A stretch of 13,534 bases of DNA from Thiohalomonas sp. (GTDB lineage: Bacteria; Pseudomonadota; Gammaproteobacteria; GRL18), in assembly GCA_023864145.1 (NCBI GenBank), contig JAIVER010000010.1, positions 1 through 13,534 of the forward strand. Reading direction: 5' to 3'. Positions within the stretch are counted from its first letter, which is position 1. The number at the start of each line of letters is the position of its first letter. The translations under genes and the position numbers were made by a program. Positions 1-1,103 of this stretch are shown in pieces. Below the pieces are notes generated by a model. The model was not told the origin of the DNA, made no database searches, and was given only the letters and a program-made list of their open reading frames with translations.

Positions 1-395
1 GCGCCTAATCATATTTGGGGCGGAGATATTACCTACTTAAAAACAGGTGAAGGCTGGATGTATTTGGCTGTTGTAATGGATTTGTACTCGCACCGTATTG
101 TACGCCTGGTACGTCAGCAAACAAATGACAACAGACTTGATATGCAAAGCATATGATCATGGCCTGTAACTTAAGGCAACCACCTTTTGGGCTTATTTTT
201 CACACTGATCGAGGTTCTCAATATACCAGTAAGCGGTACAGAAAATTACTGAGTGATTATGGGATCCGAGCAAGTATGGGTGATGTTGGAGCTTGTTGGG
301 ATAATGGCGTAGTTGAACGCTTTTATGGAAGTCTCAAGCACGACTGGATATTTAAAATTGCTCAACCTAGCCGTGAACCTAAAAAAATCAGTTAA
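1..395 (+). pseudogene. IS3-family transposase (OrfB), C-terminal part, frameshifted and truncated
   Basis: An IS3 OrfB integrase catalytic core (rve fold), cut by the window edge. Frame 1 from base 1 encodes GDITYL, with the first catalytic Asp at bases 25-27, and runs to codon ATG at 142-144. An extra C at 145 moves the reading to frame 2 for KAYD, and an extra C at 158 moves it to frame 3, where MACNLRQPP...FHTDRGSQYTS (second Asp) and ACWDNGVVERFYGSLK (Glu) follow. Dropping the two Cs restores one continuous IS3-like protein. After SLKHDWIFKIAQPSRE the family normally continues for about 40 residues containing a YYN..RLH motif; here it runs only KKIS and stops, so the C-terminus looks deleted. 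The DDE triad is present, but the gene cannot make a full transposase unless two frameshifts occur. Whether the Cs are true mutations or read errors cannot be told from the sequence. Confidence 0.85.
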
Positions 396-398
396 CCC

Positions 399-469
399 TG
401 CCAGCAACCAAAATTTAGCATAAACAACCTAAAAGTCTGACTCATTATGTTCTATGAAGGAGCTGGCAG
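399..469. repeat. 8-bp inverted repeat near the IS3 right end
   Basis: CTGCCAGC at 399-406 is matched by its perfect inverse GCTGGCAG at 462-469. The outer copy belongs to the terminal inverted repeat of the IS3 element; the inner copy lies just after the broken transposase frame. The pair could fold as a long-range hairpin with 55 bases between the arms, or could be a second transposase-binding core. The function is unknown. Confidence 0.5.
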
Positions 470-476
470 TCCCACA
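459..476. repeat. Putative right terminal inverted repeat of the IS3 element
   Basis: The last 18 bases before the junction at 476/477, read from outside inward, begin TGTGGGACTGCCAGC. The left partner is outside the window, so this assignment rests on the TG...CA terminus and on the disruption of the neighbouring minus-strand transposase frame at exactly this point. Confidence 0.5.
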
Positions 477-617
477 TGCTACTGAGCAATAATGGACGAC
501 TGGTAATTGCCTGACTGGTAATTGCCTCATGGTGTTTGTGTGGAATAGCTAATCGAACAAATAAATTCCACCAGTTACATATCAATGCAATCATTCGAGC
601 CATGAATTGACAGCTCT
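477..617 (-). pseudogene. DDE transposase C-terminal fragment (IS1380/IS4-like)
   Basis: Read on the minus strand from about 617, the sequence encodes QFMARMIALICNWWNLF, then VRLAIPHKHHEAITS and SRPLLLSS. This resembles, from memory, the C-terminal region of DDE transposases of the IS1380/IS4-like kind (NWW.LFVRL...EAITSRPLLL). No catalytic part is present. The fragment abuts the broken end of tnsA around 612-630 and ends at 477, where the IS3 element interrupts it. A minus-strand frame continues through the junction to a stop at 445-447, giving a chance 52-residue ORF from the ATG at 603. The frame carries an in-frame 15-bp duplication. The family placement is inference; that it is a transposase remnant is fairly sure. 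Confidence 0.6.
498..527. repeat. Perfect 15-bp tandem duplication inside the transposase fragment
   Basis: GACTGGTAATTGCCT occurs twice back to back at 498-512 and 513-527. On the minus strand it repeats five codons, giving EAITSQAITSRP instead of the family-like EAITSRP. It is a recent-looking slippage or duplication in a decaying gene. Confidence 0.9.
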
Positions 618-1042
618 TTATTTTATGGGTATATATTGTGGGTGCCGAATCCCTAATTTTTCAGCCAAAGCTACGGTATCATCGATATTTAAGGGAAAGT
701 GTTCTCTTATATCAAGCATGAAGGTTGACCAGTCAAAAAGATAAAAGGTTGCCAATTCCAGGTCGGATAACAGATGGAGGACCCGGCCATGGATAATACT
801 GGGTAAGCGATGAGTACGACCTTTGCTAGGCAGATCACGTACTTCAAGGAAGGGTTTATAAGCCGCACCAATTCCTTGCCCACGACCTTCTTTAAATCGT
901 TTGGCAATATTAGATATTACTAATTTATTGATTGTTTTCAGGTTTAGCTTGAGGAAATCACCCATTCTGGGGCATCCTGCTTAATATTTAATCAAAAATT
1001 AGCATAATTACCCTAAGGATGATACTTTATTATTAATCCACA
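612..1042 (-). mobile_element. Remnant of a Tn7-like transposon, right (glmS-proximal) end
   Basis: The remnant comprises a candidate right terminus ending at 1042, about 77 bases of AT-rich end sequence, and the beginning of tnsA. In Tn7 the right end faces glmS and tnsA is the first gene inward, read in the same direction as glmS; the same layout is seen here. No tnsB, tnsC, tnsD or cargo is in the window. I could not find convincing repeated TnsB-binding sites in 966-1042, so the end sequence is either diverged or degraded. Confidence 0.75.
618..965 (-). pseudogene. tnsA: Tn7-type TnsA endonuclease, truncated after the N-terminal part
   Basis: TnsA is the endonuclease of the TnsAB transposase that cuts the 5' ends of a Tn7-type element. 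The 115-residue product matches the start of Tn7 TnsA closely: KEGRGQG (25-31), VRDLPSKGRTHR (42-53), GRVLHLLSDLE (60-70), LDIREHFPL (84-92) and GIRHP (105-109). Glu70 aligns with catalytic Glu63 of Tn7 TnsA. The frame stops at 618-620 just past GIRHPQY, before the equivalents of Asp114, Gln130 and Lys132, so the enzyme cannot be active; full-length TnsA is about 270 residues. The start at 965 is supported by AGGA nine bases upstream. The gene points away from glmS, as tnsA does beside the right end of Tn7. The break coincides with the start of a foreign transposase fragment. Confidence 0.88.
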
Positions 1043-1047
1043 TTTAA
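1038..1047. other. Candidate Tn7-like right terminus and target-site duplication
   Basis: Bases 1038-1042 are CCACA, which read from the outside inward is TGTGG, the start of Tn7 right ends (TGTGGGCGG... in Tn7, from memory). The next five bases, TTTAA (1043-1047), are nucleotides 21-25 after the glmS stop codon, the same place as the 5-bp duplication that Tn7 makes in E. coli. The second copy of the duplication at the far end of the element is not in the window. Confidence 0.6.
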
Positions 1048-1103
1048 TAATATTCGTATCTTCCCTCCTACTCAACAGTAACTGATTTTGCCAGATTTCT
1101 GGG
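1043..1103 (-). other. attTn7 attachment site region (3' end of glmS)
   Basis: TnsD of Tn7-type elements recognises the last 30 or so bases of glmS, which encode the conserved active-site tail, and directs insertion just downstream. Here the tail reads NLAKSVTVE and stops at 1068-1070; the candidate insertion point lies 20-25 bases further on. The extent of the recognition region is taken from the known E. coli site, not seen directly. Confidence 0.65.

Follow-up and report, generated by a model that had tools for sequence, protein, structure and literature searches.

The 13,534-nt stretch analysed here (the window) covers positions 1 to 13,534 of contig C10 in a Thiohalomonas genome of 1.94 Mb (432 contigs, 94% completeness; pieces may be unassembled). 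Near its start, a short tnsA-like open reading frame lies beside the 3′ end of glmS, which raises the question of whether a Tn7-type transposon once entered the chromosome at this site and, if so, in what state it persists. We have little doubt that a Tn7-type transposon inserted 25 bp past the glmS stop codon and was then wrecked by other insertion sequences, and that the window holds a relic of its right-hand end adjoining glmS (Table 1).

Table 1 Features of the glmS-proximal part of the window (G002 and G003 are relatives described in the text).
Feature	Position	Strand	Basis
Mobile-element debris cutting tnsA	1-633		Also present on contig C181 (633 bp, 99%)
IS3-type transposase remnant	153-395	plus	Profile scan
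Truncated tnsA ORF, 115 aa; TnsA homology 633-965 (residues 1-111)	618-965	minus	ORF list, phmmer, relatives
Tn7-type right end, non-coding, starts TGTGG (1042-1038)	966-1042	minus	71/77 bases as in G002; exact pattern match
Single putative TnsB-like site, AATAATAAAGTATCATCCTT	1015-1034	minus	Three tandem copies in G003, one imperfect; TnsB binding presumed
Candidate 5-bp target duplication TTTAA (minus strand: TTAAA), nt 21-25 past glmS stop	1043-1047		Presumed; position as in the G003 element
Chromosomal spacer, 25 nt, glmS stop to transposon end	1043-1067	minus	7/25 bases as in G002; 4 to 11/25 across 17 relatives
glmS, 608 aa	1068-2894	minus	ORF list

A phmmer search of the PDB with the 115-residue product returned Tn7 TnsA (1t0f_A, E 9.6e-26; 1f1z_A, E 9.9e-26), with query residues 19-110 aligned to residues 15-106 and 12-103 of the two chains, respectively. 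The gene adjoins glmS at the right end of the element and is transcribed inward. A preliminary description of this DNA, which had proposed a truncated tnsA in canonical orientation beside the glmS 3′ end, is thereby borne out (E ~1e-25). It had also called for a TnsA match in family searches; that match came from phmmer against the PDB, while neither Pfam nor NCBIfam profiles name a family for the 115-residue fragment. In the full-length TnsA of the relative G003, Pfam recognises the two TnsA domains, but the N-domain is matched only from residue 83 onward, so that most of that Pfam model lies beyond the truncation in the window. A search with the Pfam TnsA-N model gave zero matches in the window's own genome but also zero in 14 control genomes, and is therefore uninformative. 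Intact TnsA relatives comprise 284 residues, of which the window retains 1-111, with 80% identity to G003 and, in two comparisons, 86% and 88% to G002. The homology stops at window base 633, and the codons in 618-632 derive from the adjoining debris. Comparison of TnsA with plasmids by tblastn gave 508 records among the matches listed, with identities of at most 80% by band. The catalytic residues of Tn7 TnsA are E63, D114, Q130 and K132, of which presumably only E63 (here E70) falls within the surviving part.

The terminus TGTGG, which is also that of Tn7 itself, is read on the minus strand from nt 26 past the glmS stop codon (1038-1042 on the plus strand). Homology to G002 jumps at this boundary, from 7 of the 25 spacer bases to 71 of the next 77, and BLAST aligns the two from the initial base of the terminus onward. 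The terminus and the position of TTTAA at nt 21-25 are thus as first described, and the glmS boundary, previously drawn by eye, is backed by the comparison with relatives. According to PMC2918618, insertion is expected about 20-25 bp downstream of glmS, and the last 36 bp of the gene are the counterpart of the TnsD recognition region of attTn7; nt 21-25 agree with the attTn7 coordinates given there if the 36-bp TnsD site takes in the stop codon, which is our own reading. By analogy, TTTAA on the plus strand may be the target duplication of the window copy. Its left-end partner would lie outside contig C10, whose first base is window base 1 and falls within repeated sequence; the left end of the transposon is not on this contig.

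In the window's own genome, the end pattern TGT-N6-R-TAATAAAGTNTCAT matches exactly once (C10:1019-1042), once with one mismatch (contig C77) and twice elsewhere with two mismatches, and a reversed-pattern control with up to two mismatches matches zero times forward and once in reverse. Only one TnsB-like site accompanies the TGTGG end of the window, as in the C77 copy and in G002, and G003 has three in tandem. The prototypic Tn7 right end has four partially overlapping TnsB sites and is functional only if the last two of them overlap (PMC11406308); because of this requirement, a one-site end such as that of the window is probably defective. At gathering threshold, Rfam matches nothing in the window, the first 2,000 bases of C146 or C77.

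That intact relatives of the element may exist had been anticipated, and one with a 5-bp duplication at the same position is found in G003 (MAG N3S-Bin_2, JAPHSW010000073.1). This intact 20.7-kb tnsABCDE element (C237:40790-61482) lies after glmS in the same position and orientation as the window copy. Its ends are TGTAGTCC and TGTGGAAC, flanked on both outer sides by TAATT. It encodes TnsA, TnsB (recognised by a Mu-type C-terminal domain and a PDB match), TnsC, TnsD (with TniQ and TnsD domains) and TnsE; for TnsB, TnsC and TnsD, the PDB returns the Tn7 counterparts with E values of 7.8e-143, 5.2e-128 and 5.8e-51, respectively. Thus the G003 relative shares with Tn7 all five tns genes and the 5-bp duplication. 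The window copy resembles Tn7 in its TnsA sequence family, gene orientation, insertion 25 nt past the stop codon and TGTGG terminus, and it is a relic of this well-known kind; it differs in consisting of a right end and part of tnsA, and in having a single TnsB-like site where PMC11406308 describes four overlapping ones for Tn7. Beyond tnsA (over 111 residues), the G003 element has in common with the window a related right end and the same site, and it differs in being intact, with three tandem TnsB-like sites and a cargo.

The cargo of the G003 element (L062:2000-11449) encodes SspB, SspC and SspD (PADLOC E values of 4.6e-104, 0 and 1.9e-134); next come a protein bearing two HATPase domains and one of 640 residues, the latter without a family match in PADLOC, Pfam or NCBIfam. 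An unrecognised partner of Ssp may be encoded here. Tn7-like elements carrying defence genes are already known (PMC8649781). The preliminary description had also hinted at CRISPR-guided cargo, and this finds no support in the G003 relative: the element has TnsD, TnsE and SspBCD, its cargo shows no CRISPR-like array over L062:1-12136 and L063:19280-20000, and no cas family occurs among the element proteins scanned, a subset of its ORFs. Type I-B1 CAST elements that target glmS also use a glmS-recognising TnsD, as PMC11406308 describes; they differ from the present elements in that no cas gene or CRISPR-like array is seen in the intact G003 relative, and the window copy retains no cargo in which a cas gene or array could be sought.

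An element related to that of the window is found in G002, a symbiont of Lucinoma myriamae (JAHXIM010000487.1), which has in addition to a similar tnsA the same single TnsB-like site at the same glmS position; it differs from the window in that tnsA and tnsB are open and homology to tnsC ends at residue 452 of 552. The shared position and site, together with the agreement of the right ends, could reflect one insertion common by descent to the window and G002 rather than independent ones. Such an origin is unlikely in view of the dissimilar spacers and of the synonymous divergence of the pair, for which dS is 0.137 in tnsA as compared with 0.99 in glmS and 0.81 in glmU; rounded synonymous differences number 10 at 76 sites in tnsA versus 227 at 412 sites (Fisher p 3e-12). 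The tnsA dS far below that of glmS, in combination with the unlike spacers, favours separate arrivals of the two elements by horizontal transfer, as judged from sequence divergence.

The window tnsA is cut at base 633, just where the 633-bp block common to contig C181 has its edge. Within this block, 376-633 is a repeat with many copies in the genome, from which about 212 inner bases are missing here relative to C146; it is probably a transposase tail, and we take it to resemble that of an IS1380-type transposase, an identity that NCBIfam did not confirm. Contig C77, which lacks a glmS match, carries another tnsA fragment (C77:5832-6179, L051); its right end has the same single site, and it is 95% identical to the window tnsA over 86 codons. 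It starts two bases inside the terminus, beside an internal part of a repeat common to C155, presumably of IS30 type, and is truncated by a different repeat, the end of which likewise sits on C155. The C77 piece may represent another insertion or else a copy that has been rearranged, and misassembly is also possible.

The contig opens at window base 1 in repeated sequence, and tnsA runs on as an intact ORF in G002 and G003; hence the contig might merely break in an insertion sequence inside tnsA, with the element intact elsewhere in the organism. A DNA search of the genome with the G003 tns region recovered only the window and C77 pieces (40 of 50 candidates scored), and protein searches with G003 TnsB, TnsC, TnsD and TnsE gave no match; these were run without a positive-control genome, the same tool having recovered both of the genome's own pieces with the TnsA fragment. 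The four genes tnsB, tnsC, tnsD and tnsE, all present in G003, were thus not found in this 94%-complete assembly, which makes the window copy a relic of a Tn7-type element and not a working member. Apart from C10 and C77, moreover, the end pattern is not found with fewer than two mismatches. Even if the element were intact elsewhere, tnsA would be disrupted, and the gene appears less constrained here than in its relatives. The persistence of an intact element is accordingly considered very improbable, and slightly less likely because the TnsB-TnsE protein searches found nothing.

The tnsA substitution rates rest on few sites (86 codons; 111 when the window is compared with G002 or G003). Over 111 codons, the window-G002 pair has a dN of 0.054 and a dN/dS of 0.39. 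Over 86 codons, dN/dS is 0.55 for window-G002, 0.30 for C77-G002, 0.10 for G002-G003, 0.19 for window-G003 and, on two synonymous changes, 1.66 for window-C77. The value of 0.55 versus 0.10 for G002-G003 suggests weaker constraint on the window tnsA. Retention of the N-terminal TnsA fragment for a host function is scarcely credible, in that the 115-codon frame is open with no internal stop but has the most private replacements over 86 codons (5, versus 2 in C77, 1 in G002 and 4 in the far more distant G003) and, of the catalytic residues, presumably keeps E63 (E70) alone; domestication of the fragment was rejected on this substitution pattern.

The relic reading is supported by the TnsA match, the G002 boundary at the terminus TG, the intact G003 element, the spacing repeated among relatives and the absence of tnsB-E; the missing left end and second duplication copy, the lack of an empty site in a sister strain, the 432-contig assembly and the few sites behind dN/dS stand against certainty. 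The element would have arrived 25 bp after the glmS stop codon, presumably via the TnsD route, so that tnsA came to lie beside glmS, directed away from that gene. Its later destruction by other insertion sequences would have left 111 tnsA codons and a 77-bp stretch of right end bearing a single TnsB-like site. The remnant is unable to make a full transposase, and it is probably inert.

The glmS 3′ junction was read in 18 of 24 genomes of the family; the six others are G005, G010 and G018 (no good match to glmS), G007 and G008 (interrupted by a contig end) and G016 (41% match). By eye, a Tn7-type end lies 24-25 nt past the stop codon in eight of the 18 (the window's own genome G000, G002, G003, G004, G013, G014, G015 and G017). 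The end pattern supports seven of these, G014 resting on inspection and an adjacent tnsA, and tnsA adjoins five of the eight. No Tn7-type end was seen at the other ten junctions, including that of G009, which has TGT at a similar distance without a TnsB-like site. Among the 17 readable relatives, G002 and G003 alone repeat the body of the window's right end, in both cases beside tnsA, and G004, G013, G015 and G017 share only a 12-14 base core of the TnsB-like site. Relatives that lack any insertion yet have the same bases at 1020-1067 had been named as refuting the proposal; none of the 17 keeps the spacer (4 to 11 of 25 bases agree, ungapped). An empty site was not found in a sister strain: G011, the closest by glmS (97.8% amino acid identity over the matched part), has an unrelated downstream region, presumably resembling an hsdS tail. 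Its glmS (G011:C222, L055) is 97.5% identical from window base 1086 on, and the last codons (1068-1086) use other synonymous codons; this looks like a replacement within the TnsD recognition region. In the sister genus, where G021 and G022 are unoccupied, G017 shares 14 of the first 16 spacer bases with G021 and 15 with G022; over the following 8 bases the agreement falls to 2 and 1, a comparison that locates the break only roughly.

Intact, decaying and tns-less elements at a single site form a small natural series within the family, which shows the arrival and decay of Tn7-type elements in bacteria related to a Lucinoma symbiont; a literature search found no published work linking Lucinoma symbionts with Tn7. 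Duplications of 5 bp at both sides are seen in G003 and in G004 (TGAAT). It is tentatively proposed, at somewhat short of an even chance, that the glmS site of this family is a shared dock for autonomous Tn7-type elements and for small tns-less satellites with Tn7 ends that are mobilised in trans, and that elements have repeatedly arrived there by horizontal transfer and decayed. The best example for the satellites is a 2,664-bp element at the G004 glmS site (G004:C35:675413-678076, L066), which has Tn7-type ends, TGAAT on both sides and a few small ORFs, and in which tblastn with G003 TnsA-E finds no match at E values up to 1e-4. It is the most unusual side result at an otherwise ordinary locus. 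On several contigs of G004, the end pattern occurs 22 times with up to two mismatches, versus 5 for the reversed control, which suggests that this genome carries several scattered elements with Tn7-type ends.
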